From positions 2,542,001-2,606,000 of the forward strand of contig AP025582.1 in NCBI GenBank assembly GCA_022846075.1: a DNA stretch of 64,000 nucleotides, given 5' to 3'. A program made the translations under genes and the position numbers. This DNA comes from Oscillospiraceae bacterium (GTDB lineage Bacteria; Bacillota; Clostridia; Oscillospirales; Oscillospiraceae). The notes below the pieces were generated by a model. That model did not search any database, was not told the origin of the DNA, and worked only from the letters and a program-made list of their open reading frames with translations. Positions 31,237-47,424 of the stretch are shown here, piece after piece; position 1 is the first letter of the stretch; each line of letters opens with the position of its first letter.

Positions 31237-31260
31237 TCTCCAATGAAAGGAGTTTTCAAC

Positions 31261-32340
31261 ATGGAAACCAACTTCAGCGCCCCTCTCGGCCGGGTGGCCG
31301 GACGGGACGTGCCCGTTGCTCCCCTGCCCATGCCCGGCGAGGGCGGGGCCATCGACAGCGGCGCCACCCCCGTCGTCCCCCTGCCCGACGTGGGCGAGGG
31401 CGGCCCTGTGGGCGGCGGCCAGACCCCCGGCGGCATGCTCCCCGACTTCGGCGAGGGCGGCCCCGTGGGCGGCGGCAGCCAGACTCCCGGCGGCATGCTC
31501 CCTGACTTCGGTGAGGGCGGCCCCGTGGGCGGCGGCAGCCAGACCCCCGGCGGCATGCTTCCCGACTTCGGTGAGGGCGGCCCCGTAGCCGACGGCAGCC
31601 AGACCCCCGGCAACATGCTCCCCGACTTCGGCGAGGGCGGCCCCGTGGCCAACCCCAGCCCCAGCCCCTCCTTTGCCTACGTCCGCTTCCTCAACGCGGT
31701 CACCGACGGCGTCCCCCTGCGGGTCAGCCTGGGCAACCGGCTGCTGGCCACCAATCTGGCCCCCGGCAGCCTCACCGGCTACTACACCGTCTCCGCCGGG
31801 TTCCGCAATCTGACTCTGGCCGACGCCCGCTTCCCCTGGACCGTCCTCTTCCGCTCCGCCGTGCCCTTCTCCAACCGGGAAATCGTCACCCTGGCGGTGG
31901 TCCGCTCCGGGGCCGGGGTGGATCTGGTGCGGGTGGACGACCGGCCCTGCTTCAGCCGGGGCACCAACCGGGCCTGCGTGCGGACGGCGAACCTGATGTA
32001 CAACAGCCCCGGGCTGGACGTGATCCTCACCGACGGCCGGGTGGTCTTCAGCGACGTGCGCTTCAAGGAGGTCACCACCTTCCGCAGGGCCAGGGCCGGG
32101 CAGTACGATATGTACATCGCCCAGACCCCCTACGTCCTCCCCCTGGACTATACCGACATCGAGACGGTGGAGGATATGCCCGTGGTGATCCCCGACTACT
32201 TCCTCCCCGGCTACGGGGCTGTGGAGCCGCTGGCCTCCTTCTTCCTGGACGCCCGGCCGGGCGCCATGGTGACCATCTACCTTATGGGCAACTGGAACCG
32301 CTCCCACAACGTGCGGGTGCGTGTGGTCCAAAACTTCTAA
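31261..32340 (+). CDS. DUF4397 protein with Gly-rich N-terminal tandem repeats
   Basis: 359 aa from ATG 31261 (AAAGGAG). Residues about 42-132 are near-identical 20-residue repeats of the type PDFGEGGPVGGGSQTPGGML: four copies and a partial fifth. Residues 139-350 contain two DUF4397-like beta domains (FAYVRFLNAVTDGVP and CVRTANLMYNSPGLDV). There is no signal peptide or membrane segment. That is unusual for DUF4397 proteins, which are mostly extracytoplasmic, and together with the repeat head suggests a spore-surface or other assembled structural role (inference). It lies between the tRNA(Sec) terminator and selD. Confidence 0.8.
   Translation: METNFSAPLGRVAGRDVPVAPLPMPGEGGAIDSGATPVVPLPDVGEGGPVGGGQTPGGMLPDFGEGGPVGGGSQTPGGMLPDFGEGGPVGGGSQTPGGMLPDFGEGGPVADGSQTPGNMLPDFGEGGPVANPSPSPSFAYVRFLNAVTDGVPLRVSLGNRLLATNLAPGSLTGYYTVSAGFRNLTLADARFPWTVLFRSAVPFSNREIVTLAVVRSGAGVDLVRVDDRPCFSRGTNRACVRTANLMYNSPGLDVILTDGRVVFSDVRFKEVTTFRRARAGQYDMYIAQTPYVLPLDYTDIETVEDMPVVIPDYFLPGYGAVEPLASFFLDARPGAMVTIYLMGNWNRSHNVRVRVVQNF
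31381..31665 (+). repeat. 60-bp in-frame tandem repeat
   Basis: About 4.7 units of a 60-bp repeat within the DUF4397 gene (unit boundaries near 31381, 31441, 31501, 31561 and 31621). Units differ at a few third positions only, with small changes in units 4 and 5. The first unit lacks one codon. Such arrays are prone to copy-number variation. Confidence 0.9.
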
Positions 32341-32378: not shown

Positions 32379-33423
32379 ATGACTGGATCACGACGGATTT
32401 TTCCCCTTTCGCCGCCATTCGACCGATGACCGCAGCGGTGAGCCCACGGTCCCGGAGGCGGCGGAGCAGCTCCTCCGCCCCCCCTTCCGGCAGCGCCACC
32501 AGCAGCCCGCCGGAGGTCTGTGGATCGAAGAGGAGGTCCGCCCTTTCCCGGGAAATACCGCCGGCAAGGGCCACCTCGTCCCCGGTGTCCGCCCGGTTGC
32601 GGTGGCACCCGGCGGGGAGCAGCCCCTCCCGGGCCAAGTCCAGTGCCCCCGGCAGCAGGGGGACCTCCCCCGCCCACAGCCGGGCGGTCAGGCCGCTCCC
32701 CCGGGCCATCTCCAGGGTGTGGCCCACTAGGCCGAAGCCGGTGATGTCGGTGCAGGCGTTGGGCCGGAGGGGCATCATGGCCTCCCAGGCCCAACGGTTG
32801 AGCAGCGCCATGGTCTCCACCAGTTCTCCGGCGGCGGCCTCACTCAACAGCTCCGCCTTGGCGGCGGTGGTGAGGACCCCCGTGCCCAGGGGCTTGGTGA
32901 GGACCAGCAGGTCCCCCTCCCGGGCCGTGCTGTTTCGCAGGACGGCCTCCACCGGGGCAAAGCCGGTGACACACAGGCCGTACTTGGGCTCGTCATCCTG
33001 GATGGAGTGGCCCCCCGCCAGCACGGCTCCGGCCTCGGCCACCTTGTCCGCCCCTCCGGCCAGAATGGCCCGGACGGCCTCGGCGGGGAGGCAGGCGGGC
33101 ACCGCCAGCAGGTTCATGGCAAGCCGGGGCGCGCCCCCCATGGCCCACACGTCGGACAGGGCATTGGCGGCGGCCACCCGGCCGAAATCGTAGGGGTCGT
33201 CCACCACGGGAGGGAAGAAATCCACCGTCTGGATGAGGGCCTGGCCCCCGTCCAGGGCGTACACGGCGGCGTCGTCACTGCCGCTGTGGCCTACCAGCAG
33301 ACGGTCATCGGACCCCGCGGGCAGGTCTTTAAGCAAGTTTTCCAGGGCACCCGGCCCCATCTTGGCCCCTCACCCACCGGCCGAGGTCATCTGGGTCAGT
33401 TTCACCCGTTCCAGCGCCGACAT
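32377..33423 (-). CDS. selD: Selenide, water dikinase SelD, itself a selenoprotein (Sec18 at UGA)
   Basis: 348 aa if UGA at 33372-33370 is read as selenocysteine. Translation starts at ATG 33423 (GGAGGTGG upstream) and reads MSALERVKLTQMTSAGGUGA, then Lys21. This places Sec18 and Lys21 exactly where E. coli SelD has Cys17 and Lys20. Conventional calling would start at ATG 33360 and lose the catalytic residues. Downstream motifs are GSDDAAVY, FFPPVVDDPYDFGRVAAANALSD and LAGGHSIQDDEPKYGL. It makes selenophosphate from selenide and ATP for SelA. A plausible bacterial SECIS follows the UGA. Confidence 0.95.
33335..33372 (-). promoter_or_regulatory. UGA(Sec) codon and putative bacterial SECIS hairpin in selD
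   Basis: UGA occupies 33372-33370. Sixteen nt downstream lies a loop CGGGU (33353-33349), closed by GGGGC/GCCCU and, below a bulge, AAG/CUU. A small apical stem with G and U in the loop at this distance fits SelB-type SECIS elements. Confidence 0.65.
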
Positions 33424-33455
33424 GGCCGCCACCTCCCTTCCCTTCAGCTGACCCT

Positions 33456-33484
33456 ATTGTATCCTTTTTTGGTGGCTTTCGCAA
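33456..33484 (-). promoter_or_regulatory. Promoter of selD
   Basis: On the minus strand TTGCGA (33484-33479), a 17-nt spacer and TACAAT (33461-33456), 32 nt before the selD ATG. Confidence 0.6.
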
Positions 33485-33555
33485 CGGCTGGCACCCCTTT
33501 TCTCCGGCGGGCATACTCTGAATTGGGTCAACTTTCTGAACGGAGGGTCATTTTT

Positions 33556-34632
33556 ATGGAACCAAAGGTCTCATTTTTCCTGGGAGCCAACACGCCCTCG
33601 GGTTTTTATTCCCTGTACGATCAACTCATCGACCCCGACGAAGCCCGCCGGGTCTACCTGCTCAAGGGCGGGCCGGGCTGCGGCAAGTCCTCCCTCATGC
33701 GCCGGGTTGCGGCGGCCCTGGAGGAGGCGGGGGAGGCGGCGGAATACATACAGTGCTCGGGGGACCCGGGCTCCCTGGACGCCGTGGTCTTTCCCCGCCT
33801 GGGCGCCGCCATCGTGGACGCCACCGCGCCCCACGTCATGGAGCCCAAACTGGCCGGGGTGGTGGACTGCTACGTGGATCTGAGCCGTTTCTACCGCCGG
33901 GAGGAGCTCCTTCCCCTGCGGGGGGAGATCGCCGGGGCCACCAGCGGCTACAAGAGCCACTACAAGCGGGCCTACCACTGTCTCACCGCCGCCGCCCAGC
34001 TCATGGAGGACAACCGGGCCCTGCTGTCCACCCCCGCCCTGGAGGCCAAGGCCCTGAAGCGGGCCAGGGGCATCCTCTCCCGGGAGGTGAAAAAGACGGG
34101 CCGCCAGCCGGGGCGGGCGGTCCAGCGTTTCCTGGGGGCGGTCTCCTGCCAGGGGGTCTCCTGCAATTTTGAGACGGTGGACGCCCTGTGCCGCCGGGTC
34201 TACGAACTGTCCGACAGCTACGGCCTGGCCTCGGGGATGCTTACCGCCCTGGCGGCGGGGTGCATGTCGGCGGGATACGACGTGATCCTCTGCCCCTCCC
34301 CCCTGTTCCCGGAGCGGGCGGAGCATCTGCTGGTCCCCGAGCTCTCCCTGGCCTTCGTCACCAGCACCCCCGCCCTGCCCTATCCCCAGCGGCCCTACCG
34401 CCGCATCCGGCTGGACGCCATGGCGGACGCCGAGCTCCTGCACAAGTACAAGGCCCGGCTCAAATTCTCCCGGAAGGTCACCGCCGCCCTCATGGAGGAG
34501 GGGGTGGACGCCCTGGCCCACGCCAAGGCGGTCCACGACCAGCTGGAGGCCCTCTATAACCCCCACGTGGACTTTGAGGGGGTTTACCAGGAGGCCGGCC
34601 GCATCACGGAAGAACTGCTGTCCATGAAGTAG
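33556..34632 (+). CDS. P-loop ATPase of the PRK06851 type
   Basis: 358 aa from ATG 33556 (GGAGGG upstream). The long in-frame extension before it runs antisense through selD and is rejected. Walker A GGPGCGKSS sits at about 38-46, followed by YIQCSGDPGSLDAVV and VDATAPHVMEPK, which are typical of this family of Firmicutes proteins. Relatives usually carry two P-loop halves. Here the second half (after about residue 195) has no intact Walker A, so it is degenerate. The role is unknown. It is monocistronic and divergent from selD. Confidence 0.75.
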   Translation: MEPKVSFFLGANTPSGFYSLYDQLIDPDEARRVYLLKGGPGCGKSSLMRRVAAALEEAGEAAEYIQCSGDPGSLDAVVFPRLGAAIVDATAPHVMEPKLAGVVDCYVDLSRFYRREELLPLRGEIAGATSGYKSHYKRAYHCLTAAAQLMEDNRALLSTPALEAKALKRARGILSREVKKTGRQPGRAVQRFLGAVSCQGVSCNFETVDALCRRVYELSDSYGLASGMLTALAAGCMSAGYDVILCPSPLFPERAEHLLVPELSLAFVTSTPALPYPQRPYRRIRLDAMADAELLHKYKARLKFSRKVTAALMEEGVDALAHAKAVHDQLEALYNPHVDFEGVYQEAGRITEELLSMK

Positions 34633-34688: not shown

Positions 34689-35693
34689 TCAGCGGATGCG
34701 CAGGCCGGTTTCCCGGTCGAAATAGTGCATCCTGCTCCGGTCCAGGGTGATGGAGATGCCCTCCCCCGGCCGGGCGGAGAAATCCGCCCCGGCGGCCATG
34801 GTGAGGGGGCCGATCCCCTCGGCCTCCAGGAACACCAGAGCCTCCCGGCCGGTGCGCTCCACGTTTTCCACCCTTGCCCTGTACCCCTCCCCGCCGGGGT
34901 GGACGTGTTCGGGCCGGATGCCCGCCACGCAGGGGGCGTCCAGCACCGTCTCCTCCCACACGTTCATGGGCGGGGAGCCGATGAACCGGGCCACGAAGAG
35001 GTTGGCGGGCTCGTTGTAGACCTTCTGGGGGGTGTCGGCCTGCTGGAGGACGCCCTCCTTCATGACGGCGATGCGGGTGCCCATGGTCATGGCCTCGGTC
35101 TGGTCGTGGGTGACATAGACGGTGGTGGTGCCCAGAGAGCGCTGGAGGGAGACGATCTCCCGGCGCATATCCACCCGGAGCTTGGCGTCCAGGTTGGAGA
35201 GGGGCTCGTCCATGAGGAAGAGCCGGGGGCTGCGGACCATGGCCCGGCCCAGGGCCACCCGCTGGCGCTGGCCCCCGGAGAGGGCGCCGGGGTAGCGGTC
35301 CAGGTATTCCGTCAGGCCCAGGGAGGCGGCCACCTCCGTGACCCGGGCCCGAATGTCCGCCTTCTTCCAGCGACGCATTTTCAGGGGGAAGGCCATGTTG
35401 TCGTAGACCTTCATGGTGGGGTAGAGGGCGTAGTTCTGGAATACCATGGCGATGTCCCGCTCCTTGGGGGGGACCTTGTTCACCACCCGCTCCCCCATGC
35501 GGATGGTCCCGCCGTCCACCCGTTCCAGCCCGGCGATCATCCGCAGGAGGGTGGACTTGCCGCAGCCCGAGGAGCCCACGAATACCATGAATTCCCCCCG
35601 GTCCACCTCAAGGTCCATGTCCACCACGGCGTGGACGCCGCCTGGGTACCACTTATTGGCCTTTTCCACGCTCAGGCTGACGCTCTCTTCCAT
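34689..35693 (-). CDS. ABC transporter ATPase, UgpC/MsmK/MalK type
   Basis: 334 aa from ATG 35693 with AAGGAGG. Walker A is GSSGCGKST, the Q-loop is VFQNYALYP, the signature is LSGGQRQRVALGRA, Walker B is LFLMDEPLSNLDAKLR and the switch His lies in VTHDQ. A C-terminal OB-type regulatory domain (about 240-334) marks it as a sugar-type import ATPase. It is last in the six-gene operon starting at 43040. It energises the MalF/MalG pair upstream. The MacB-like protein in the same operon has no ATPase of its own, so sharing is conceivable. Confidence 0.94.
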   Translation of the reverse strand: MEESVSLSVEKANKWYPGGVHAVVDMDLEVDRGEFMVFVGSSGCGKSTLLRMIAGLERVDGGTIRMGERVVNKVPPKERDIAMVFQNYALYPTMKVYDNMAFPLKMRRWKKADIRARVTEVAASLGLTEYLDRYPGALSGGQRQRVALGRAMVRSPRLFLMDEPLSNLDAKLRVDMRREIVSLQRSLGTTTVYVTHDQTEAMTMGTRIAVMKEGVLQQADTPQKVYNEPANLFVARFIGSPPMNVWEETVLDAPCVAGIRPEHVHPGGEGYRARVENVERTGREALVFLEAEGIGPLTMAAGADFSARPGEGISITLDRSRMHYFDRETGLRIR

Positions 35694-35734
35694 AGGGGGA
35701 CCTCCTTGCCGGCTGGCTCTGAAAATTAGGCGGA

Positions 35735-36574
35735 CTAATCCTTCATGCCCGCGGCGCTGATGCCCGCCTCCAGGTATTTCTGCCCGAAGAGGAAAATGAG
35801 GAGGGCGGGGACGAGCATGATGACCGACGCCACCAGGGAGACCCCGGCGTTGTCGGCGGTGACGGTGGGCAGATAGAGGGACAAGGGCCACAGGGTCTTG
35901 TCCTTCAGAAAAACAAGGGGCTGCTCCAGGGCGTTCCAGTACTCCAAAAACCCCAGCACCACGGCGGAGAGGATGCCCGGGGCCCCCAGCGGCAGGCCCA
36001 CGTGGAGAAAGGTCTGGAAGGGCCCCGCCCCGTCCAGGGCCGCCGCCTCGGTGAGGGCCGAGGGGATGGCGGTAAAGAATCGGACCATGAGGAACACGGG
36101 AAAGGTGGACACCGCCCCGGGCAGGATGATGGCCCACACCGTGTTCATGAGCCCCAGCCCGTCCAGCACCAGGTAGCTGGAGACCATGGTCACCTGGAAG
36201 GGCATGAGCATGAGGACGATGTACAGCGAGAAGAGGGCCTTCTTCCCCCGGAAGCGGAACCGGGCGAAGGCCCAGGCCGCCGGGGCCCCGATGAGGACCT
36301 GCCCCAGCACCACGGGAAAGACCTGGCGGCAGGAGTTCCAGAACATGGCGAAGAACTGGGGGGTATCCAACAAAAGCTCCACGTAGGGCTTCAGGGTGGG
36401 GTACATGGGCAGCAGGGGCCACACCGCCGTCCCCTCCGCGTTTTTCAGCACGGGGGCCAGGTTTTGGGCCATCTCCTCCGCCCCCATGAGGGAGCCGGAG
36501 AGGAGCAACCACAGGGGGACCCAGACGAAAAAGGCCACCAGGACCAGCACCATGCCGATGAGCCATTTCTTCAT
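35735..36574 (-). CDS. Carbohydrate ABC transporter permease (MalG type)
   Basis: 279 aa from ATG 36574, overlapping the MalF-type gene by 4 bp (ATGA). It has six membrane helices. The ABC coupling loop EAAALDGAGPFQTFLHVGLPL lies at about 190-210, and the C-terminus GISAAGMKD is characteristic of MalG permeases. It forms the import channel with the preceding permease. The substrate is not predictable; the operon lacks sugar-catabolic genes. Confidence 0.93.
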   Translation of the reverse strand: MKKWLIGMVLVLVAFFVWVPLWLLLSGSLMGAEEMAQNLAPVLKNAEGTAVWPLLPMYPTLKPYVELLLDTPQFFAMFWNSCRQVFPVVLGQVLIGAPAAWAFARFRFRGKKALFSLYIVLMLMPFQVTMVSSYLVLDGLGLMNTVWAIILPGAVSTFPVFLMVRFFTAIPSALTEAAALDGAGPFQTFLHVGLPLGAPGILSAVVLGFLEYWNALEQPLVFLKDKTLWPLSLYLPTVTADNAGVSLVASVIMLVPALLIFLFGQKYLEAGISAAGMKD

Positions 36575-37470
36575 CCCATCCCCTCCCTTCCCCACACCCG
36601 CTGGAGGACCAGGATCAGCAGAAAGACCACCAGGGCCATGAGGACCGCCCCCGCGCACATCTTGTCCACGTCCAGGTCCACGAACCAGTTGTTGAAAAGG
36701 TGCTGGAGCATGTAGATGCTCTTGTTGGGGTAGCTGCCCCCGATGAGGTATGCCTCCCGGAACACCTTGAAGGAGTTCAAAAGAGAGAGAACCGTCACGG
36801 TGAAGAGGGTGGGCTTCAGGTTGGGCAGGGTGATGCGGAAAAACCGCTGGAGCCCGCCGGCCCCGTCGATCTCGGCGGACTCGTACAGGGCGGGAGAAAT
36901 GGCGGTGAGGCCGGAGAGCCACAGCACCATATCGTAGCCGGTGTTTTTCCACAGGTAGGTGAACACCAGCACGAAGAAGGTCCCCGAGCTGTCCAGCCAG
37001 TTCACCGGCTCCAGCCCCCAGGCCCCCAGCAGGACGTTGAACAGGCCGTTTTCATGAAAGACCACCTGCCACAGCAGCACGATAGAGGCCACGGGGATGG
37101 CCATGGGCACGAGGAAGGAGGTCTTGAAGATCCCCCGTTTTTCCTGAAAGGCGTTGACCAGCAGGGCCAGAAAGAGGGAAAAGAGGAGCAGCACCGGGAT
37201 GTACACCGCCGCGAACTTGGCGGTGTTGGCCGCCGCCAGCCGGAAGGCGCCGTTTTGGAGGACGGAGAGGTAATTCTTCATCCCCACGAACTGGCCGCTC
37301 ATGGCGGAGAAAAAGGAGCGGCGCACCGCGTCGGCGAAGGGGAGGAGCACCAGCACCGTCACCGCCAGCAGGCTGGGCAGGAGAAAGAGCCAGGGGGCCG
37401 CCCCGTCGGTCTCGGGGGGCAGGCCGGAGCCCCGGTCATTCCCCGTCCCCTGGCGCTTCCAGAGCTTCAT
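36571..37470 (-). CDS. Carbohydrate ABC transporter permease (MalF type)
   Basis: 299 aa, ATG 37470 with a G-rich ribosome site. It has an N-terminal hydrophilic stretch and then six membrane helices. The coupling loop is YESAEIDGAGGLQRFFRITLP near 215-235. It is the partner of the MalG-type permease. Its start lies inside the end of the upstream MacB-like gene (35-bp overlap), showing tight coupling between the importer and the adaptor/MacB-like part of the operon. Confidence 0.93.
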   Translation of the reverse strand: MKLWKRQGTGNDRGSGLPPETDGAAPWLFLLPSLLAVTVLVLLPFADAVRRSFFSAMSGQFVGMKNYLSVLQNGAFRLAAANTAKFAAVYIPVLLLFSLFLALLVNAFQEKRGIFKTSFLVPMAIPVASIVLLWQVVFHENGLFNVLLGAWGLEPVNWLDSSGTFFVLVFTYLWKNTGYDMVLWLSGLTAISPALYESAEIDGAGGLQRFFRITLPNLKPTLFTVTVLSLLNSFKVFREAYLIGGSYPNKSIYMLQHLFNNWFVDLDVDKMCAGAVLMALVVFLLILVLQRVWGREGMG

Positions 37471-38692
37471 GTTCTTCCCCCCTCTCCCTCGGTCTTAAAA
37501 ATTCCTCATGCCGGGCAAGGCCCCAGCCGAACAGAGGCCACAGCACCGGCAGCAAAAGCATGGGCCGGCTGAGAGCCAGGCCTCCCCGGTCCCCCAGAAG
37601 GAACACCAGGGCCAGCAGGGTCCCCAGGCTGAGGGCCCAGCCCGCCACGACCCCCTGGCCGTCCCGGGGCCTGACCCGCTCGGCGGCCAGCAGGGTGAGG
37701 GCCAGGGCGGCCGCCGACAGCAGCAGGCAGCCCAGGGCCAGGGGCCACAGCCGCAGGTCCCGCAGGGTCAGCGGCCCGGACAGCCAGGCCCCCAGGCTCT
37801 CCCCCAGCCCCGACGCCAGCCGGGCCCAAAAGCTGAAGTCGGACCACTTGGTGGGGATGAGGGCGGCGGGCACCCTGGGGGGGAAGTTCCCGCACCACAG
37901 GGCCAGGGCACCGGCGCACAGGGCGGGGGGCAGGTAGGACGCCAGCAGCAGCGGGCTGGCCCGGAGGGCCAGGCCCCGGCGCAGCAGCTTCCACAAAAGG
38001 CCCAGCAGCAGGGCGGCCCCGGGCAGACCCGCCAGGGCCGTCACGCACCAGGACAGCAGCTCCAGATCCAGCAGGTCGCCCCCGCTCCAGCCGTTCCGGT
38101 TCAAGAAGGCCTGGGCCGCCTCCCGGCCCCCCTGCTGGGGAAAGCGCAGGAACAGGTTGGGCCAGGCATCGGCGTCGTCCGCCCGCCCCGGCAGAAGGGC
38201 CAGGCCGCCGTCCCCCCGGAATACCCCCCGGAGGACGTAGGTTTTCCCCTCCCAGCGGACGATCTGGCCGGGGCGGCCCACCCCGCCCCACAGGGCGGCG
38301 GAGAGGGCCTCGTCCACGGCGATGCCCTCGGCGTCCCCCTGGGCGGGATAATTGCCCGTGAGAAAGGGGACCGGCCAAAGGTCGGCCCCCTGGCCATAGA
38401 ATTCCACCACCGAGGCGGCGGCGGTCCGCTCTTCCCCCTCGTCCCAGAGGACCGCCCCCGGCTTCTCCCGCCACAGGGTCATTCGGGGGACATTCTCCCC
38501 CCCGTCCTCCCGGGCGTAGCGAAGGGCCTCCTCCACCTGGGCGGGGCTGACGCCCCCCTCCCCCTCCCAGCGGGCGGACACGCCGGAGGAGAGGGCCCCG
38601 ATCTCCTGGGCCAGAAAGGCGCACAGTCCCCAGGCCAGCAGGGCCAGCACCCCCAGGAGGGGGGCCGCCCACTTACTTGTCTCCCGTTTCAA
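37436..38692 (-). CDS. Multi-span membrane protein with MacB-core-like extracellular domain
   Basis: 418 aa. The first membrane helix (about 10-30) is followed by a roughly 170-residue extracellular domain containing VVEFYGQGADLWPVPFLTGNY, IAVDEALSAALWG and WEGKTYVLRGVF. These resemble the MacB periplasmic core of efflux permeases. Five or six further helices fill residues about 215-400. A standard FtsX domain is not clearly recognisable. It follows and overlaps (20 bp) the HlyD-type adaptor, the pairing expected of a MacA/MacB-like system, but no dedicated ATPase is present. Function is uncertain. Confidence 0.65.
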   Translation of the reverse strand: MKRETSKWAAPLLGVLALLAWGLCAFLAQEIGALSSGVSARWEGEGGVSPAQVEEALRYAREDGGENVPRMTLWREKPGAVLWDEGEERTAAASVVEFYGQGADLWPVPFLTGNYPAQGDAEGIAVDEALSAALWGGVGRPGQIVRWEGKTYVLRGVFRGDGGLALLPGRADDADAWPNLFLRFPQQGGREAAQAFLNRNGWSGGDLLDLELLSWCVTALAGLPGAALLLGLLWKLLRRGLALRASPLLLASYLPPALCAGALALWCGNFPPRVPAALIPTKWSDFSFWARLASGLGESLGAWLSGPLTLRDLRLWPLALGCLLLSAAALALTLLAAERVRPRDGQGVVAGWALSLGTLLALVFLLGDRGGLALSRPMLLLPVLWPLFGWGLARHEEFLRPRERGEEHEALEAPGDGE

Positions 38693-40685
38693 GGCGCACC
38701 CGATCCCCTTCCCCGATGGGCTTGCTGGAGCTGGTAACCACCTGCTCGGTCCCCATGAGGGAGGATTCCACGGCCATGGACTCGCTGTCCCGGTCCAGGA
38801 CGGTCACCTCCACCCGGACCACGGTCTGCTCGATGCCCATCACGGTGTTTTTCTCCTGGAGGACCAGCACATAGTCCTTGTCGCCGTCGCTGCGCAGGGC
38901 CCCCAGGGGCAGGCAGGCCCCGTACTGCTCGCTGCGCTTGGAAAGCTCCAGCTTGGCGGACACGCCGGCGGGGTAGCTCCCCTCGGGCAGGGTCACGGTC
39001 ACCTTGACCTGGCCCTTGTCGTCGGCGGCGCCGATGGCCGAGACCACCCCCACCGCTTCCCTTGCCTTGCCGTCCTGGTGGTAGGTCACCTTGCCCTGGT
39101 CCCCCAGGGACAGCTTTTCGGCGCTCTTCTCGTCCGTGGCGGCCTCCATCTGGAAGCCCTGGTCGCTGCGGGACAGGGAGGCCACCGACACGCCGTCCTG
39201 GGTCCGGCCCGTCTCGGTGAGAATGCTCTGCACCGTGCCGGCGATGGGGGCGGTCAGCACGCCGCCCCCGGCCGCCACCCGCTCCAGCTCGGCCAGGGTC
39301 CGGGCCTGCTCCCGGCGCTCGCTCTCATAACCCAGCCGCTCGATCTCCCGGCCCCGCTGGTCCTTGGCCGCGGACAGGCGGTTTTCCTCCGCCTTGCGCT
39401 GGGCCTGCTCCACCGCCCGCTGGGCGGCCTCCACGGCCCGGCCGGCGGTAAAGATCTGCTCGTCGGTGGCCACGTCCGTGTCCTCCACCCCCCGCTGGGC
39501 GGTCTTGAGGGCCCGCTCTGCTCCCTCCAGGGCGGAGCGGGCGGAGACCACCAGGGCCTCCTCGCTGACGTCGCTTTCCTTCTTCACCTTCTCCAGCTCG
39601 GCCTTGGCCTCTTCCAAGGCCTGCTCCGCCTTCTTGACCTTTTCCCCCTGGCGCTCGGTCACCTTGGCCAGCTCCTCGGCGGCCCGGGTGACGGCCAGGT
39701 CCCCCTTGTAGTTATAGGACTCCATGCTCCAGTTCGCGGCGTCCACCTCGGCCTGGGCGGCGTCCACCTTCTCCTGGGCGGCCTGGAGCTGGGCCTCGGT
39801 GGCGGTGCCGGAGTCCTGGAGCTCCTGGAGCTCCGCCTGGGCCTTTTGGAGCCGCTCCTTCGCCGTTTTCAGGTTCCGCACGGAGTTGTAGTAGGGCTCG
39901 CTGAAGGCTTTCGCGCTGTCCTGGGCGGCGGTCAGGCTGGCCTGGGCGCTCTCGATGGCGGACTGGGCCACCTCCTGGACGGCCTCCAAATCCTTCTGCG
40001 CCCCCTTCACCTTTTCCTCCGCCTCTTTGACCAGGTTTTCCAGGGCCTTTTTCTCGGCCTTCTCTAAATCCTCCAGGGCCTTGTCATAGTCGGCCTGGGC
40101 CGTGAGGAGGTCCTCCTCACTCCGGCCCTCGGCCCTCTCGCGGCTGTTCACCAGCCGGTCGTAGTCCTCCTGGGCGTCGGCCAAGGCCTGCTGGGCGGCC
40201 AGGATGGCTTCCGTGTCGTCCCCGCTGTTGCCCGAGAGGGCGTTTTGGATCTTCAAATCCAGCAGGCGGATGTCGTTTCTCAGCTTTTCCATGGTCCGGT
40301 CCAGCCCGGCGCCGTCCAGCTCCAGCAGGGGGTCCCCCGGCTCCACCCGCTGCCCGGCCTGGGCCCGGATGGAGGTGACCTGGATGCCCGCGGGGAGGGT
40401 GAGGTCCAAGTCCCCCAGGGGCTCAATGGTGCCCGAGAGGTCCACCCGCTGGGTGAGGATGCCGGTCTTGGGCCGCTGGGTCTTTACCCGGGCCACCGTC
40501 ACGCCCTCCGCCGCCCGGGACACCAGGGTCAGGCACAGCATCAGGGCGAAGAACCCGGCCAGCAGCCGGACCGCCGTGCGCTGGAGCCTGCTGGTAAAGC
40601 GGGACTTGGGCTTCTCCCCGCTTTGCAGGCGGACCCGCTCCTCCTCGGCGCGGATGTTCAGTTGTTCCATCGGCTTCAGGGCCAT
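38673..40685 (-). CDS. HlyD/MacA-type adaptor with long coiled coil
   Basis: 670 aa from ATG 40685 (AAGGTGG upstream); an in-frame GTG at 40697 has no ribosome site. A membrane helix (about 40-60) precedes a biotinyl-lipoyl half, GTIEPLGDLDLTLPAGIQV and IRAQAGQRVEPGDPLLELDG. A very long Ala/Glu/Gln/Lys heptad coiled coil (about 125-465) is followed by the second lipoyl half VLTAPIAGTVQSI and a beta-barrel region. In Gram-positives such adaptors link a permease to the cell wall space. The hairpin is much longer than usual for MacA. It sits between a solute-binding lipoprotein and a MacB-like protein. Confidence 0.85.
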   Translation of the reverse strand: MALKPMEQLNIRAEEERVRLQSGEKPKSRFTSRLQRTAVRLLAGFFALMLCLTLVSRAAEGVTVARVKTQRPKTGILTQRVDLSGTIEPLGDLDLTLPAGIQVTSIRAQAGQRVEPGDPLLELDGAGLDRTMEKLRNDIRLLDLKIQNALSGNSGDDTEAILAAQQALADAQEDYDRLVNSRERAEGRSEEDLLTAQADYDKALEDLEKAEKKALENLVKEAEEKVKGAQKDLEAVQEVAQSAIESAQASLTAAQDSAKAFSEPYYNSVRNLKTAKERLQKAQAELQELQDSGTATEAQLQAAQEKVDAAQAEVDAANWSMESYNYKGDLAVTRAAEELAKVTERQGEKVKKAEQALEEAKAELEKVKKESDVSEEALVVSARSALEGAERALKTAQRGVEDTDVATDEQIFTAGRAVEAAQRAVEQAQRKAEENRLSAAKDQRGREIERLGYESERREQARTLAELERVAAGGGVLTAPIAGTVQSILTETGRTQDGVSVASLSRSDQGFQMEAATDEKSAEKLSLGDQGKVTYHQDGKAREAVGVVSAIGAADDKGQVKVTVTLPEGSYPAGVSAKLELSKRSEQYGACLPLGALRSDGDKDYVLVLQEKNTVMGIEQTVVRVEVTVLDRDSESMAVESSLMGTEQVVTSSSKPIGEGDRVRLETGDK

Positions 40686-40748
40686 GGGAAACACCACCTT
40701 CTGGGTCGTCTCTGTTTGTCCTCCGCCGGACTTTGGCTGGCGGGGGAA

Positions 40749-43040
40749 TTATTCGGAAAGATAGATCTGGGTCTTTTCCACCACCTGGGCGGCGGCCTCC
40801 TCCGGGGTAAGCCTGCCCTCCAGCAGGGCCTTGGTCTGATCGAGGACCACGTCGGTCACCACCTGGTCGGTGAGCAACGGCTGAGACAGGCTGCCGCACA
40901 GGGACAGGAAGCCCATGTCGTCGGCGCCGTCCAGGATCTTGATCACGGATTTTTCCAGGGAGCCGCGGACCACGGAGAACCCGTCGCCCAGGTACTTGTC
41001 CTGGACCGTGCCGGAGAGGAGCATCTTCACAAAGCTCTGGGCCAGCTCCTTCTGCTGGGAGGTGGTCACGATGCCCACCGCGCCGGAGGGGGTGTAGGCC
41101 CCCTGGCCGAAGAGGGAGTCCAGCGCCCAGCCCTCTTCCCGGCCTAAGTTGGTGCAGATCTGCTCCAGGCCGTAGATTCCCCCAAGCTCCTGGATGTGGA
41201 AGAGGGCCTGGCCGTTTCTGAGGACAAAAGAACCCATGTCTATGACCTCCGCCCGGCCTCCGCCGTCCGACATGGTCACGAGGATCGCGCTGGTGCTGCC
41301 GTTTTGGGGCGTGTTCTTTTTCAGGGCGGCGTCGATCTGGGAGACCTGCCGGAAGAACTCCGTCAGGGCCCCCTCCTCCACCCCCGCGCCCTGGCGGGCC
41401 GGGGCGAAGAGATTCACGTACAGGGGGGCCGCGCCGTCCTCACCCCAGAGGGTGTCGGGGGCTTTGAGGAAGGGGGTGGAGCCGCCCTGCCGCTCCTCCA
41501 CCTCCCGGGCCAGGTCCGCCAGGGCCCGGACGGCCATCACGTCCTCCGACCTGCCCATCATGACGGGCAGAGTGAACCGGGAGGGAAGGGCGAATACGCC
41601 CCCGCCGGTGCGGTAAGCCCCCATGAGGTTGGGCATGAGACCCTGGGCCTCCAGCTCACCCTCCAGGCCGCTCAGATCCTCCAGCACGCCCTTTTCGATG
41701 TAGGAGGCGGCGGGCAGACCGTCCAGCACCAGCAGGTCGGGGCCCTTGCCGTTCAAAAGCTCGGTGTTCAGCGCCCGGATCACGTCCTCCGGAGTGGCGG
41801 CCGACTCCCCCTCCAGCAAAATCTGGAAGTTCACCTTCACGCTGGTGTTGCGGCGCTGGAACTCGCCGATGGCCTGGCGGATGGTGGCATTGTCGTCCAG
41901 GGCGGCGATGGTGAGCTCGGTGTCGGGATTGGTGGGGGTGTCGGCGCTGTAAGTGTAGCGCATGACCTCCACCCCCTCTTCCCCGGAAAGCAGGGCCCAG
42001 AAGCTGCCCTCGGGGCCGGACGCCGTGGCCGCGATGCTCAGATCGGGCATGGACAGGGAGGTGAGCTCGCCGTCCACCAGCTTTTCCCACAGGGTGCCCC
42101 CCTCGGCCTGGCGGTAGATGCCGCCGCTGTTGGCCAGGAATACGCCCTCCTCGTCCAGGTTGGGCACGGTGGCGTAGTCCAGCCCGTCAAAGACGCACTC
42201 GCTCTTCGCGCCGGTGTCCAGGTCATAGAGCCACAGCCCGCTGTAATTGGGGTCAAAGGCCAACAGCTGATTGCCGTAGACCGCCGTGGAGCCGGCGAAG
42301 GCGGTGCAGGGATACTCCCGGATCAGCGCGCCGTCCGCGCCGCTGTACCGGGACACGCCCTTATTGCCGTAGGAAATCAGGTAGTCCCCGTTTTCCAGCA
42401 CGCTGAACCCGGTGGGGGGAATCAAGGAGAACGGCTCTCCCACTGCTCCCCCGTCTACCCCGACGGAGACGCTGCCCTCCACGGTGATCCCGCCAAAACT
42501 GCCCGAGACGACCGCACCGCTCTTGCCGTCGGAGGTGGTGACGCCGGGGTCGTTTTTGCTGCCGGAGACCGTGATTCCGGGCTCTTCCCCGCCGCCGCCC
42601 GCCTCCTTTTCCCAGTCCGGGATCTCGATGTCCTGGGGCGTGTCCCCCTCCGCCCGGACCAGATGGGGGGCCCCAGCCTGGTCCATGTACAGCGCGAAAA
42701 GGGCGCCGTTGGAGGTCTCGTTGATGCCCAGGACGCTGTTCCCGGCGGCCATCAGGCCGGAGAGCCACGTGACGTCCTCTTCTTGTATCTGGCCGTCCTG
42801 GGAGATCTCGTACCGCTTGGCCCACTGCTCGGTCTTGCTGTACCCGTAGGTCACCAGCACGCCGTCCTCCCGCAGGCAGGTCCCCCGGACCCGCTCGACC
42901 CCCGGCAGGGACCCGGTCTGCTCCTCGATATACCGCCCCATGGGCACGTTTCCGCCCTGGGTCCCCTCGGAGCTCCCGCAGCCGGACAGCAGCCCGGCGG
43001 TCAGGCTCAGGGACAGTGCCGCGCATAAAAATCGTTTCAT
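40749..43040 (-). CDS. Lipoprotein: N-terminal propeller-like region fused to an extracellular solute-binding domain
   Basis: 763 aa from ATG 43040 (AAGGGAG). It has a lipoprotein signal with lipobox LLSGC. Just after it comes PMGRYIEEQ, shared with the paralogue at 45174-47396. Residues about 45-360 are beta-rich with repeated loops (YLISYGNKGVSRYSG, LWLYDLDTG, GGIYRQAEGG), suggesting a beta-propeller. Residues about 375-763 are an ABC solute-binding domain (IRQAIGEFQRRN, NTELLNGKGPDLLVLDGLPA, SGAVGIVTTSQQ). It is first gene of the transporter operon and divergent from its regulator. The propeller may present or sense ligand. Confidence 0.85.
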   Translation of the reverse strand: MKRFLCAALSLSLTAGLLSGCGSSEGTQGGNVPMGRYIEEQTGSLPGVERVRGTCLREDGVLVTYGYSKTEQWAKRYEISQDGQIQEEDVTWLSGLMAAGNSVLGINETSNGALFALYMDQAGAPHLVRAEGDTPQDIEIPDWEKEAGGGGEEPGITVSGSKNDPGVTTSDGKSGAVVSGSFGGITVEGSVSVGVDGGAVGEPFSLIPPTGFSVLENGDYLISYGNKGVSRYSGADGALIREYPCTAFAGSTAVYGNQLLAFDPNYSGLWLYDLDTGAKSECVFDGLDYATVPNLDEEGVFLANSGGIYRQAEGGTLWEKLVDGELTSLSMPDLSIAATASGPEGSFWALLSGEEGVEVMRYTYSADTPTNPDTELTIAALDDNATIRQAIGEFQRRNTSVKVNFQILLEGESAATPEDVIRALNTELLNGKGPDLLVLDGLPAASYIEKGVLEDLSGLEGELEAQGLMPNLMGAYRTGGGVFALPSRFTLPVMMGRSEDVMAVRALADLAREVEERQGGSTPFLKAPDTLWGEDGAAPLYVNLFAPARQGAGVEEGALTEFFRQVSQIDAALKKNTPQNGSTSAILVTMSDGGGRAEVIDMGSFVLRNGQALFHIQELGGIYGLEQICTNLGREEGWALDSLFGQGAYTPSGAVGIVTTSQQKELAQSFVKMLLSGTVQDKYLGDGFSVVRGSLEKSVIKILDGADDMGFLSLCGSLSQPLLTDQVVTDVVLDQTKALLEGRLTPEEAAAQVVEKTQIYLSE

Positions 43041-43181: not shown

Positions 43182-43862
43182 ATGCGCATTTTGATGATCG
43201 AGGACGACCGGGACCTGTGCGGGGCCGTGGATATCCATTTAAAAAGCCAGGGCTACACGGTGGACTACGCCTACGACGGGGAGGACGGCCTCCACTTTGC
43301 CCGGCAGAACGCCTATGACCTCATCCTCCTGGACCGGATGCTGCCCGGACGGAGCGGGGTGGAGGTGGTCTCCGCCCTTCGGCGGGAGGGGCTGTCCACC
43401 CCCGTGCTGATGATCACCGCCCTGGACGGCATCCAGGACCGGGTGGACGGCCTGGACGCCGGGGCGGACGACTATCTGCCCAAGCCCTTCGCCACCGAGG
43501 AGCTGCTGGCCCGGATCCGGGCTCTGGCCCGCCGGCCCCGGCAGGTGGAGACCACCCACCTCCTCCGGGCCGGGGACCTGGAGCTGGACGTGGAACTGTG
43601 CGCCCTCCGGGGCCCCGCCGGGCCCTGCCCCCTCTCCCGGCGGGAGGCCCGGCTTCTGGAGCTGCTGCTGCGCAACCGGGGCCAGACCTTGACCCGGGAG
43701 CTGCTGCTGGCCCGGATCTGGGGCCCAGACGCCCCTGTGGAGGACGGGAACCTGGACAACTATATCCACTTCCTCCGCCGCCGTTTAAAGACCGCGGGCA
43801 GCCGCTCCCAGATCGCCACGGTGCGGGGGGTGGGCTACCGGCTGGAGGAACCGCCATGCTGA
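43182..43862 (+). CDS. OmpR-family response regulator of the transporter locus
   Basis: 226 aa, ATG 43182 with GGGAG. It starts MRILMIEDDRDLCGAV; Asp51 is the phosphorylation site and Lys101 is conserved. The winged-helix domain ends RTVRGVGYRLEE-like (ATVRGVGYRLEEPPC). It is a paralogue of the regulator at 47547-48227: same length, same MRILMIEDD start, same DRMLP loop. It overlaps its kinase by 7 bp. It likely activates its own promoter and the divergent transporter operon through TTAGAG direct repeats. Confidence 0.93.
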   Translation: MRILMIEDDRDLCGAVDIHLKSQGYTVDYAYDGEDGLHFARQNAYDLILLDRMLPGRSGVEVVSALRREGLSTPVLMITALDGIQDRVDGLDAGADDYLPKPFATEELLARIRALARRPRQVETTHLLRAGDLELDVELCALRGPAGPCPLSRREARLLELLLRNRGQTLTRELLLARIWGPDAPVEDGNLDNYIHFLRRRLKTAGSRSQIATVRGVGYRLEEPPC

Positions 43863-45163
43863 AACAGCTGCGTCTGCGCCTGACCCTCCTGGCCGCCGCC
43901 CTCACCGGGGCGGTGCTGGTGGTCATGGCCCTGGCCGCCCTCTCCCTGTCCGAGGGACGGCTCCAGGAGAGCCTTCGGGCCAACTTCCAAACCAGCGCCA
44001 ACGGCATCGTGGTCAAGCTCCAGACCGACCGGGTGGTGAGCGCCGCCTGGCTGGCCCAGCTGGAGGCCGGGGAAAACCTGGTCATCTCCCTCCGGGACGG
44101 GGGGCGGCCCATCACCTTCCGTGGGGCCTGGGCGCCGGCCACCGACCGGCAGGTATTGATCGACCGGGCTGCGGAGCAGGGGCGGGCCCTGGGGGTGGAC
44201 CCCGGCCTGCCCCCCATCTCCATCCTGGAGCCCACCTCCACCCCCGCGTTCCAGGTCCAGGGGGACCACGGGGACAGGTATCTGGCCTCCGTGACCCTGA
44301 TTCCCGCGGGGCGGGGATGGCAGAGCCTTGTGCTCCTCAAGGACATTGCGGACAGCCGCCGGGAGATCTGGCTCCTCCGGGGGGCCTTCGCCGGCCTGGT
44401 GGCCCTCGGGGTGGCCGCCCTGGTGGCCCTGTGCTGGCTCTTCGCCGGGCGGGCCATCCGGCCCATCGAGGAGAGCCAGAAACGGCAGGCCGAGTTCATC
44501 GCCGCCGCCTCCCACGAGTTGCGCTCCCCCCTGGCCGTCATCCGCACCGCCGCCTCCGCCCTGGCGGTGGACCCGGCCCAGGCGCCCAGGCTGCGGCGCA
44601 GCATTGAAAACGAGTGCGCCCGCATGGCCCGGCTGGTGGACGACCTCCTGTCCCTGGCCCGCAGCGACGCGGGCACCTGGAGCGTGGCCGACGCCCCGGT
44701 GGACGTGGACGCCCTGCTGCTGGAGACGGCGGAGAAGTTCCTCCCCCTGGCCCGGGAAAGGGGCCTTTCCCTCCATCTGGAGGTGCCGGACACCGACCTG
44801 CCCATGGTCAGGGGGGACGCCCAGCGTTTGGGTCAAATCCTCACCGTCCTGCTGGACAACGCCCTGAGCTACACCCCAGCCGGAGGGGCCGTCACCTTGA
44901 GGGCCCAGGCCCTTCCGGAGGCCGTGCTCCTCCGGGTGGCCGACACCGGCCCCGGCATCCCCTCCGCCGACGCGGCCCACATCTTCGACCGCTTCTACCG
45001 GGCGGACACCGCCCGGAACAGCAAGGAGCACTTCGGCCTGGGCCTCTCCATCGCCCAGGAGCTCACCCGGCTCCACCACGGGACCCTCCGGGTGGCCTCC
45101 ACCGGGCCGGAGGGTACGGTCTTTGAGCTGAAACTGCCGGTGCCGAAGGAACCCCTCTCATAA
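43856..45163 (+). CDS. Sensor histidine kinase of the transporter locus
   Basis: 435 aa from ATG 43856. Two membrane helices (about 8-30 and 176-196) enclose a 145-residue extracellular sensor. A very short linker follows, with no full HAMP domain. The DHp motif EFIAAASHELRSPLAVIRT has His220. The ATPase has LLDNALSYTPAGG, DTGPGIP and HFGLGLSIA. It is paralogous to the kinase at 48220, with the histidine at the same residue number. Its extracellular domain may read the ligand state of the propeller-type lipoprotein (inference from linkage). Confidence 0.92.
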   Translation: MLKQLRLRLTLLAAALTGAVLVVMALAALSLSEGRLQESLRANFQTSANGIVVKLQTDRVVSAAWLAQLEAGENLVISLRDGGRPITFRGAWAPATDRQVLIDRAAEQGRALGVDPGLPPISILEPTSTPAFQVQGDHGDRYLASVTLIPAGRGWQSLVLLKDIADSRREIWLLRGAFAGLVALGVAALVALCWLFAGRAIRPIEESQKRQAEFIAAASHELRSPLAVIRTAASALAVDPAQAPRLRRSIENECARMARLVDDLLSLARSDAGTWSVADAPVDVDALLLETAEKFLPLARERGLSLHLEVPDTDLPMVRGDAQRLGQILTVLLDNALSYTPAGGAVTLRAQALPEAVLLRVADTGPGIPSADAAHIFDRFYRADTARNSKEHFGLGLSIAQELTRLHHGTLRVASTGPEGTVFELKLPVPKEPLS

Positions 45164-45173
45164 TGTGGGGGCG

Positions 45174-47396
45174 TCACTCCGCCAGGTAGAGCTCCAGCTT
45201 ACCGAGCACCCGGTCCACCGCCCCGTCAAGGTCCTGCTTTCCGGCGAAATAATCCGCCGTCTCCTGCTCCATGATGGTCTGGATGCTGCCGTCCAGAAGG
45301 ACCGGGGTATCCAGGGCCTTGAGGGTCTCCGCCCAGGCGATTCGGTAATCCTCCGGCGGGTAGTCGATGGTGACGTAGATGGGCACGTCGGCCCCGTCCT
45401 TGTCCGTCAGGGTGGTGCCGTAGGTGGAGAAGTGGCCGTTCCGATTCGGGTCCGGGTCCTCCTGGGTGGAGGCCTCAAAAGCGGCGGCGTTCACCGGCAT
45501 CCCGGTCCCCACCCCGGAGCCCTGGACCTCCTCCGACAGGGCCGTGGCCAAGAACTGCCGGGCCACGGCGGTATTCTGGCTGCGGGCGTTGATGCCCAGG
45601 ATGGTTTTGGGCTGGTACAGGCCATGACCGAAGAGGGGAACGGTCTCCCCGTCTCCCCGGTTCTGGCTGACCTGCCACGCGGCGTACAGGCTGTCGAAGC
45701 TGCACAGGTAGCCCAGGTCGATGCCCACGGCGTCGATGGACCAGGCCAGCGCGCCGAAGCCGAATTCCGGGTGGAGTCCCCAGCTGTCCTCCACCACCCG
45801 GCCCTGCTCCATGTCCCAGATGCGCTTCATCTGGGTCAGGAAGGCGGACCAGGCGGCCTTGTCCCCGGCGTAGAGGCGGTCCCGGTCGGTCAGGGTGAAG
45901 ATCTCCATGATCCAGTCGATCTCCGTCACCGACAGGGGGTGGTTGAAGCTGTCCCGGTTGGCCTCCAGCCAGTCCACCATACTTTCCAGATCCCGGCTGG
46001 CGGACACCGCAGCCGTGGAGGCGTGGAGGACAGGGGCATCGAATTGCAGCGGGATCCCGGGCAGGGTTCCGTCGGCCCGGCGGCAGGCCGCGGCCTTGTG
46101 GGGCAGAAGCCGGTCTTCCAGGGCGGCAAAGTCCTCAGACAGGTCCAGCAGCACCCCCTTCCCGGCGTAGGAGTCCAGAGGCATCCCGTCTAGGACCAGC
46201 ACGTCCGGCCCCTTCCCCGCCACCAGCTCGGTGGCGATGGTTTTCAGGGCGTCGTCCCAGCTGTAAGAACCCTCTCCCTCGGTGTAGCCCAGCTCATAGG
46301 TGACGTACACCTCCGGGTGGTCCTTTTGGAAGGTCCCGATGGCCTGCCGGACCAGAGGGTCCTCCTCCATGGACCACACCCGCAGCTCCTGCCCCGGCAG
46401 GGTGGGCACGCCGGGGTCGTAGACATAGGCGGTGAGGCTCCAGGCCTCGTTGACCCAGGAGACCATCAGGAAGCTGTCGTCTAAGGGCACAAAGAACTGC
46501 ATCAGGAAAGAGGGGGTCCCAAGGCTGGTAAGGCCGCCGTCCACCACCTGCTCCAGCATACTGTTGCCCGTCTGGGTCCGGTAGATGCCCTTGGCGTCGG
46601 CGTAGCACACCGAACCGTCGGGGGCGTAGGCCGCCAGCCGGTTCCATGTGCTGTTGTCATTGGAGGAGTGGACAAAGGAGGCGGCAGCCACCCGGCCGGT
46701 CTCCCTGGCCGCCTCCATGTCGTAAAAAACCAGGGCGTCGTTGGCGCAGTAGACCGCTTCATTGCCCCGGATGTCATAGCCCTCGATGGAGCCGTCCTCC
46801 ACCTCAAACTGGTTTTTGACCGCCCCGGTCTCTCCGTCCAGGTGGTAGAGAACCCACCAGCAGTCCACCAGCAAATCGCCGTTGTCCGCCACCTTGAAGC
46901 TGCGGGGGCCGGCGCCGTCCGGCTCCTCCAGGGGCAGCTCCGTGATGGTCCCGTCCGGGGCGATGCGCCAGAACAGGGTCGGGACGCCCTCCCCCTCCGG
47001 CACGTCCGCGCCGTAGTCATAGCCAAAAAACCACAGGTTCCCCTGGCTGTCCCAGCAGGCGCAGTCCTGGGAATACTGGTCCATCAGTCCACCATTGAGG
47101 GCGGTGCTGTCCTGGGCCTCCCAGGTCATACCCCCGTCGGCGGAATGGAACAGCTTCAGGTCAGCCCAGTGCGCCTCGTCCCCCTCCCGGCGGATGAAGG
47201 CCAGCAGGTCCAGTTCCCCCGCCTCGTCGGCCCGCAGGGCCAGCACTTGCCCCATCCGGTCGGGCAGGGTCCGGGTTTCCTCTACGTACCGCCCCATGGC
47301 GGGCGTTCCGCCCTCCTCCCCCTTTCCACCGCAGGCGGTCAACGGCAGCGCCATCGCCAGGGCCAGCAGCCCGGCCAACAGTCGTCTCATCTTCAT
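45174..47396 (-). CDS. Second propeller-like/solute-binding lipoprotein (paralogue)
   Basis: 740 aa from ATG 47396 (GGGAGG). The signal peptide has lipobox LTACG. PAMGRYVEETRTL follows, matching the MGRYxEE signature of the lipoprotein at 40749-43040. The N-terminal region (about 45-350) is again beta-rich and propeller-like. The solute-binding domain has RQAIGTFQKDHPEVYVTYE, GKGPDVLVLDGMPLDSYAGKG and INARSQNTAVARQF. There are no permease genes behind it: it converges on the first kinase 10 bp away. It may be a stand-alone sensor or share the importer of the neighbouring operon (inference). Confidence 0.85.
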   Translation of the reverse strand: MKMRRLLAGLLALAMALPLTACGGKGEEGGTPAMGRYVEETRTLPDRMGQVLALRADEAGELDLLAFIRREGDEAHWADLKLFHSADGGMTWEAQDSTALNGGLMDQYSQDCACWDSQGNLWFFGYDYGADVPEGEGVPTLFWRIAPDGTITELPLEEPDGAGPRSFKVADNGDLLVDCWWVLYHLDGETGAVKNQFEVEDGSIEGYDIRGNEAVYCANDALVFYDMEAARETGRVAAASFVHSSNDNSTWNRLAAYAPDGSVCYADAKGIYRTQTGNSMLEQVVDGGLTSLGTPSFLMQFFVPLDDSFLMVSWVNEAWSLTAYVYDPGVPTLPGQELRVWSMEEDPLVRQAIGTFQKDHPEVYVTYELGYTEGEGSYSWDDALKTIATELVAGKGPDVLVLDGMPLDSYAGKGVLLDLSEDFAALEDRLLPHKAAACRRADGTLPGIPLQFDAPVLHASTAAVSASRDLESMVDWLEANRDSFNHPLSVTEIDWIMEIFTLTDRDRLYAGDKAAWSAFLTQMKRIWDMEQGRVVEDSWGLHPEFGFGALAWSIDAVGIDLGYLCSFDSLYAAWQVSQNRGDGETVPLFGHGLYQPKTILGINARSQNTAVARQFLATALSEEVQGSGVGTGMPVNAAAFEASTQEDPDPNRNGHFSTYGTTLTDKDGADVPIYVTIDYPPEDYRIAWAETLKALDTPVLLDGSIQTIMEQETADYFAGKQDLDGAVDRVLGKLELYLAE

Positions 47397-47424
47397 GTTT
47401 CCTCCCATCGTTGCTGTTGGCTCC

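Follow-up and report, generated by a model that had tools for sequence, protein, structure and literature searches.

The 64,000-nucleotide window analysed here, positions 2,542,001 to 2,606,000 of contig AP025582.1 of an Oscillospiraceae bacterium (assembly GCA_022846075.1), carries at 34689-43040 six linked minus-strand genes encoding, in this order, a solute-binding lipoprotein, an adaptor of the MacA/HlyD fold, a MacB-like membrane protein, the permeases MalF and MalG and the ATPase MalK (Table 1). A first-pass annotation of the window, made from the letters and open reading frames, had described the set as a sugar-type ATP-binding cassette (ABC) importer "fused genetically" to export-type components. 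Coordinates, strand and gene order were confirmed, as were the overlaps of 20 bp (adaptor/MacB-like), 35 bp (MacB-like/MalF) and 4 bp (MalF/MalG) that join export-type and import-type parts, but the linkage is that of an operon and not of a gene fusion. The lipoprotein and adaptor genes are separated by 51 bp, and those of MalG and MalK by 41 bp. GC content at third codon positions is 0.89-0.93 across the six frames, as expected of real genes here. Based on the evidence below, the system is probably an ABC importer of the MalFGK type (type I), with an oligosaccharide as its probable substrate, stably joined by two extracytoplasmic parts of the MacAB kind.

Table 1. Genes of the operon and of its divergent flank (window coordinates; E, Pfam expect value).
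Protein	Description	Position	Strand	Features
P0001	Solute-binding lipoprotein	40749..43040	-	Lipobox LLSGC; propeller-like N-terminal region ~36-370; sugar-type solute-binding domain ~375-763; SBP_bac_1 E 2.8e-7
P0002	Adaptor, MacA/AcrA/HlyD fold	38673..40697	-	One N-terminal membrane helix; very long helical hairpin; HlyD_3 E 1.7e-7
P0003	MacB periplasmic-core-domain membrane protein (by family)	37436..38692	-	Neither ATPase domain nor FtsX domain found; ~5 hydrophobic segments
P0004	MalF-type permease	36571..37470	-	BPD_transp_1 E 4.9e-15
P0005	MalG-type permease	35735..36574	-	BPD_transp_1 E 1.1e-12
P0006	MalK-type ATPase	34689..35693	-	ABC_tran E 3.3e-32; TOBE_2 E 2e-8
P0007	Response regulator, divergent	43182..43862	+	Response_reg and Trans_reg_C
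P0008	Sensor histidine kinase	43853..45163 (exact start unsettled)	+	HisKA and HATPase_c
P0009	Second propeller-type binding lipoprotein, no importer genes beside it	45174..47408	-	SBP_bac_1 E 5.6e-6

The Pfam matches of P0001, P0002, P0004, P0005 and P0006 lie above cut-off, and among the matches shown (for MalK, 25 of 199) none of seven scanned proteins reached an NCBIfam cut-off. In P0006 the Walker A, Q-loop, signature, Walker B, D-loop and H-loop motifs are intact and are accompanied by the TOBE domain. The strict pattern of the EAA coupling motif was unmatched in the permeases, in which the EAA-like stretches ESAEIDGA and EAAALDGA were picked out by eye. In agreement with the first-pass annotation, neither a further ATPase, of the MacB kind or any other, nor a catabolic gene was seen among the frames of the interval, as read by eye with a Pfam scan of the named proteins.

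The AlphaFold2 model of P0001 (mean predicted local distance difference test (pLDDT) 75.1, from 46 sequences) is beta-rich before residue 380, with low confidence at about 134-204. Among the Foldseek matches shown, solute-binding proteins of ABC systems, for sugars and for other substrates, make up most of the best; the structural neighbours of the binding domain include many sugar binders, with dietary-type oligosaccharide binders among the best, a likeness of fold that does not give the ligand. Families of propeller repeats were matched in relatives of P0001 (46 members, E up to 0.1: Reg_prop in 10, SGL in 4, SBBP in 2 and PQQ_2 in 2) and not in P0001 itself, and its N-terminal region may accordingly be read from these relatives as a putative beta-propeller.

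Foldseek matched the adaptor P0002 to AcrA, EmrA and MacA. Its model (mean pLDDT 80.5, predicted template modelling score (pTM) 0.36, 38 sequences) contains two helices, at residues 159-296 (138 residues) and 301-443 (143 residues), which at 0.15 nm per residue would extend 20.7 and 21.5 nm, about 21 nm; the placement of this hairpin relative to the body is unsure because the pTM is low. The hairpin region, previously put at roughly 340 residues, measures 348 in P0002 and 208-433 (median 345) across 37 named relatives. Conservation in 37 relatives, expressed as mean majority fraction, is 0.84 in the membrane helix, 0.69-0.72 in the membrane-proximal parts and 0.40 in the hairpin, as expected if the base is a docking surface. 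In PMC5768738, a truncated MacA homologue of Streptococcus pneumoniae is described as a barrel 56 Å (5.6 nm) high and 31 Å wide, and the modelled pump as rising 154 Å over the membrane, a height similar to that of the inner wall space.

The MacB-like protein P0003, scanned by itself, matched no Pfam or NCBIfam family and no solved structure in a meaningful way. Its family did: 10 of the 12 members scanned matched MacB_PCD with E no higher than 1 (best E 1e-11; P0003 not among the 10), and a profile of the 12-member alignment, P0003 included, matched solved MacB periplasmic domains (best 3ftj, E 1.7e-4). P0003 is tied to this family by similarity, for instance 29% identity to the member at locus L006 over P0003 residues 28-304 (E 5.5e-14). 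The earlier MacB-core-like label is thus upheld for the family and not by the scan of P0003 alone. The nine members of a second scan each contain MacB_PCD (E 4e-7 to 2e-17) and none contains FtsX. Altogether, the FtsX transmembrane domain of Pfam was found in none of 20 distinct members (0/12 and 0/9, with L024 common to both), whereas ten of ten ordinary MacB controls contain it, together with MacB_PCD in 10/10. MacB itself, according to PMC5985334, possesses four helices and engages its ATPase through a coupling helix. The family without FtsX, set against ordinary MacB with it, is probably unable to act as a MacB motor. A simple hydropathy count in 93 members with good flanking sequence (defined below) gave two hydrophobic segments in 61, three in 21, one in 3 and four or five in 8, P0003 having five; the lack of a coupling region is firmer for the two-segment forms (61/93) than for longer ones. 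The first-pass annotation had allowed that the single ATPase may energise import only or serve both halves; the ATPase proved to be of the importer type, and its also driving the MacB-like part is disfavoured by the distribution of FtsX.

The linkage of these genes was examined in the window plus 189 stretches, comprising 11 from a search of the family, 57 from the order, 3 from the window genome, 38 from the class and phylum and 80 from a scan of one genome per species. Matches were obtained in 13 of 400 genomes in the family search (E 0.001 or better, window genome included), 82 of 394 in the order, and 78 of 391 and 77 of 398 in the class and phylum; the species scan, from which 80 loci were kept out of at least 533 confirmed relatives, contributed mostly metagenome-assembled Oscillospiraceae and other Clostridia. 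Mostly the strongest places were chosen, together with some weak ones as controls. After loci sharing the last 200 residues were collapsed, 181 of 190 remained, of which 145 score above 80 to the family profile, a line drawn after the scores were known; 93 of the 145, the window included, are well flanked (at least 6 kb upstream and at least 3 kb downstream), and 39 of these 93 come from named genomes.

All 93 well-flanked MacB-like loci have an adaptor, MalF and MalG within five genes. Frame picking alone detected MalF in 86 and MalG in 90, and tblastn recovered both permeases in the 10 loci in which one had been missed; at L014 both were found truncated. A solute-binding protein lies near the MacB-like gene in 80 of the 93. 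The adaptor is present in 142 of the 145 loci, the other three being cut by a contig end within 20 bases upstream. Within two genes of the MacB-like gene no exporter-sized ATPase was found in any of the 93; among the 145, two (L228, L276) have such a frame directly after the MacB-like gene, running to the end of the stretch. The parts occur in several gene orders, with overlaps in 74 of 142 adjacent HlyD/MacB-like pairs and 93 of 112 MalF/MalG pairs. The co-occurrence that the first-pass annotation proposed to look for was found, and the MacB ATPase of their own that would have spoken against it was seen within two genes in none of the 93. Chance or misannotation is rejected, since the same genes are found together again and again in differing orders, and a decayed MacAB exporter stranded beside an importer is disfavoured since the MacB-like family is diverse and accompanied by MalF and MalG in 93/93.

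As controls, 26 well-flanked low scorers (below 62) showed an exporter ATPase in 17, MalF and MalG in 5 (L100, L102, L104, L105, L215) and neither in 4 (L108, L113, L115, L120). None of 19 exporter-linked proteins has MalF and MalG within five genes, a MalF-like frame lying six genes away at L212. The middle band (62-80) contains eight loci, five with MalG or MalF (L200, L201, L204, L207, L208) and three with neither (L202, L203, L209; the upstream sequence is short in two), which group with the exporters on the tree. The ten members linked to MalF and MalG outside the high band have three to six hydrophobic segments. In a tree of 118 proteins one change separates 92 importer-linked rows (85 with MalF and MalG, 7 without flanks) from the 19 exporter-linked ones, with 7 unclear rows left out, a short search, several long branches and biased compositions. 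A tree of MalG likewise separates 75 operon rows from 6 unlinked MalG by one change (support 86), and is weak, with long branches and a linked-labelled row (L183, at +3) that belongs to a second pair of MalF and MalG. The tree of 118 proteins is compatible with a single origin of the importer-linked kind rather than proof of it. Ahead of the last membrane segment, a tryptophan motif is present in 95 of 135 importer-linked proteins and in 14 of 20 other high scorers, and in none of the 19 exporter-linked proteins or the 7 other low scorers, the pattern having been chosen after the alignment was inspected.

The arrangement recurs across Clostridia and is not strain-specific, though the adaptor was found in only one of 16 genomes of the window genus, the window's own, and in none of the 15 others, so that the distribution within this genus is patchy. 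With the adaptor of L020 as query, a search of the family gave matches in 59 of 200 genomes, and in 33 of 106 genera; among the matches listed, G065 gave the sole clear complete short frame, several frames lying near contig ends.

Compared with known systems, MalEFGK2 and CUT1 importers share with this operon the solute-binding lipoprotein, two BPD_transp_1 permeases and a MalK with TOBE, and differ from it in that here two conserved MacAB-related subunits and a propeller-like extension of the binding protein are added. Lipid importers of the MCE/Mla type are ABC importers with an extracytoplasmic conduit, built from other protein families, for lipid substrates and in a diderm envelope. MacAB-TolC and the Gram-positive MacAB-like pumps (S. 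pneumoniae Spr0693-0694-0695, Bacillus YknWXYZ) share the adaptor fold and, by way of the family, the MacB periplasmic core; here, in contrast, no exporter-type ATPase gene adjoins, no FtsX was found, an importer lies in the operon and the helices would reach about 21 nm against a barrel of 5.6 nm (PMC5768738). BceAB, LolCDE and FtsEX (type VII) are relatives of MacB for which a shared periplasmic subdomain has been suggested (PMC5985334); unlike the family described here, they are understood to have their own ATPase and the four-helix topology of MacB. On the features that define each type, the operon has the sugar-class binding protein, the two BPD_transp_1 permeases and the MalK-type ATPase with TOBE and intact motifs of a MalFGK system, and of MacAB only the adaptor fold and, by family, the periplasmic core. 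Since the FtsX domain and an adjacent or fused ATPase of the MacB type, two defining features, were not found, the system is by these tests classed as a MalFGK-type importer and not a MacAB transporter, and it may work partly with MacAB-like parts. The first-pass annotation knew of no characterised system of this composition, and no paper describing the combination was found, by title and start of abstract, in an open-access library that excludes bioRxiv preprints and most subscription papers; one hit, PMC12838199, was set aside, "MACB" being the name of a strain there.

The importer features of the ATPase and permeases and the absence of FtsX from the MacB-like family make one motor, for import, with a passive extension the simplest reading. 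We favour, with a probability of about 0.42, an importer powered by MalK, in which the adaptor and its MacB-like base together make up an extension that penetrates the wall to capture oligosaccharide. MalK would power MalF and MalG only, and the MacB-like protein would be a passive membrane base on which the adaptor is seated, as MacA sits on the periplasmic domain of MacB. The adaptor, perhaps assembled as a ring, would send its hairpin, about 21 nm long, through the inner wall zone as far as the peptidoglycan of the envelope, which we take to be of the Gram-positive type in this group. The lipoprotein could use the extension through its propeller, binding either the adaptor or glycan, and captured oligosaccharide would be handed to the binding domain and then to MalF and MalG. 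A bolder version, which we regard as doubtful, would make this the first ABC importer with a through-wall extension, in which the adaptor, seated on a MacB base that lacks a motor, brings oligosaccharide to MalFGK from the outer region of the thick wall and the propeller lipoprotein receives it or docks.

Several observations weigh against the favoured reading. A 3 nm barrel such as that described in PMC5768738 would be too narrow for a whole binding protein, which means that the adaptor would need to work next to the importer or to serve as a tether. The relative at L020 has an adaptor of 221 residues without hairpin, and the hairpin is therefore not essential everywhere. In 13 of the 93 well-flanked loci no same-strand binding protein was found within five genes, and MalK was found beside only about 28 (a gene of 330-480 residues within three genes in 27, plus the window, whose frame was over-extended by frame picking); where it is missing an ATPase shared from elsewhere likely serves, and MalK has matches at E 1e-40 in five other places of the window genome. 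Loci L184-L188 (f52) carry, directly before MalF, a 301-residue ABC ATPase and a protein of about 730 residues with ten segments, a possible second motor; the ATPases of L184 and L186 match ABC_tran and not TOBE, and at L186 a GntR regulator precedes the ATPase. P0003 and other longer forms have three to six hydrophobic segments, and a diverged coupling region could escape Pfam. Finally, no glycan enzyme was recognised among 14 neighbour clusters (each in at least 4 of 134 loci), read by eye from the first residues with one scanned against Pfam, and no enzyme family stood out.

A hint that hairpin length pairs with the presence of the propeller comes from the short adaptors of systems whose binding protein has none (L020, 221 residues; L100, 240; L104 and L105, 341; L207, 392; L208, 403), the propeller systems in the same compilation having adaptors of at least 421 residues except L228 (246, split in two frames). 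The pairing was spotted post hoc, comprises few independent events, includes members less than 30 residues apart nearest the line and a binding protein six genes upstream at L100, and uses total adaptor length, the pattern-based hairpin measure having worked for only 39 of 123 rows; short binding-protein rows that look truncated or outside the run (L014, L093, L188, L257, L262) and L201, cut upstream by a contig end, were set aside.

Among the alternatives, the adaptor and MacB-like protein could form a sensory or regulatory arm that reports the state of the wall or lipoprotein to the importer or to a two-component system and carries no substrate. A motorless MacB-like part suits a sensor, BceAB, which is related to MacB, is described as acting in both sensing and efflux of bacitracin (PMC5985334), and a two-component system lies divergently beside the operon, as does a divergent response regulator or histidine kinase upstream of 18 of the 93 well-flanked loci. 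In the other 75, however, these profiles found none within six genes, and a hairpin of about 21 nm, varying from 208 to 433 residues in 37 relatives, is not obviously needed, which leaves this explanation unlikely.

It is also conceivable, if distinctly unlikely, that the system is a scavenger of the cell's own wall, the adaptor holding peptidoglycan or another wall glycan for the uptake of wall fragments rather than dietary sugars. The lack of a recognised catabolic context agrees with this, as does the report that YknX, a Gram-positive MacA homologue, binds peptidoglycan (Xu et al. 2017, cited in PMC5985334); the dietary-type oligosaccharide binders among the best structural matches of the binding domain (bearing in mind that fold does not give ligand) and the GH9-CBM3 cellulase next door at one f67 locus (L191) point the other way.

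That the two parts form a separate efflux or export complex, merely co-transcribed with the importer and driven by a MacB-type ATPase from elsewhere, appears improbable. The window genome does hold possible lenders, namely three ordinary loci with HlyD, an exporter-sized ATPase and MacB (L117-L119), but FtsX was found in none of 20 distinct members, 61 of 93 have only two hydrophobic segments, and linkage to MalF and MalG in 93/93 across several gene orders would be strong if the systems were independent. MalFGK systems that depend on a binding protein are importers. The idea that MalFGK here exports, either solely or as well as importing, and drives a glycan or glycolipid outwards by way of the adaptor, draws on MacA-type adaptors being otherwise known as export parts (in part from PMC5985334) and on the absence of a recurrent catabolic gene among neighbours, read mostly by eye, and is very improbable given the solute-binding protein nearby in 80/93 and a MalK with TOBE domain and MalK-like Q-loop.

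Reviews connect MacA-type adaptors and MacB domains with export and sensing (PMC5985334); here such parts are stably joined to an importer, with the exporter motor missing, in many Clostridia. If the adaptor helps uptake, the role of membrane-fusion adaptors in bacteria that lack an outer membrane can be put to the test, and the way in which thick-walled cells bring glycans to the membrane might be accounted for. Should the bolder through-wall reading be true, the system would parallel, on the Gram-positive side, the uptake machines of outer membranes.

On the divergent flank, P0007 is a possible regulator of the operon. P0009, which is 26% identical to P0001 in alignment and the only other match of P0001 in the genome at E 1e-5, lies in the segment 45174-48227 with a divergent response regulator of its own, and may use the same importer. 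A comparison of the two divergent intergenic regions for shared promoter motifs gave nothing longer than 8-base matches.

Further observations concern neighbours in other genomes. At L191 (9744-12353, f67) the GH9 cellulase with CBM3 stands directly after the MacB-like gene, and at two other f67 loci (L193, 9932-10930; L194, 7574-8596) a protein with a transglutaminase domain, whose cluster occurs in 4 loci, follows that gene. Presumably BceAB-like sets, in which FtsX-type permeases are accompanied by a histidine kinase and an ABC ATPase, adjoin the operon at L268 (5403-8620) and L274 (1407-4723). The copy at L014 (9636-16810, genome G206) looks decayed or mis-assembled, with MalF and MalG truncated in one frame, a short adaptor and a histidine kinase in two frames.

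Past the 3' end of the operon, the window has a frame for a P-loop protein at 33007-34632, which a neighbour cluster present in 7 of 134 loci (representative L015, 12243-13331) resembles by eye in its first residues. In the segment 28516-33360 a tRNA-Sec gene (31048-31142) lies between two frames that we take to be SelB-like and SelD-like, presumably a selenocysteine cluster, and the plus-strand frame at 31219-32340 bears in its N-terminal part several near-identical repeats containing DFGEGGPV.

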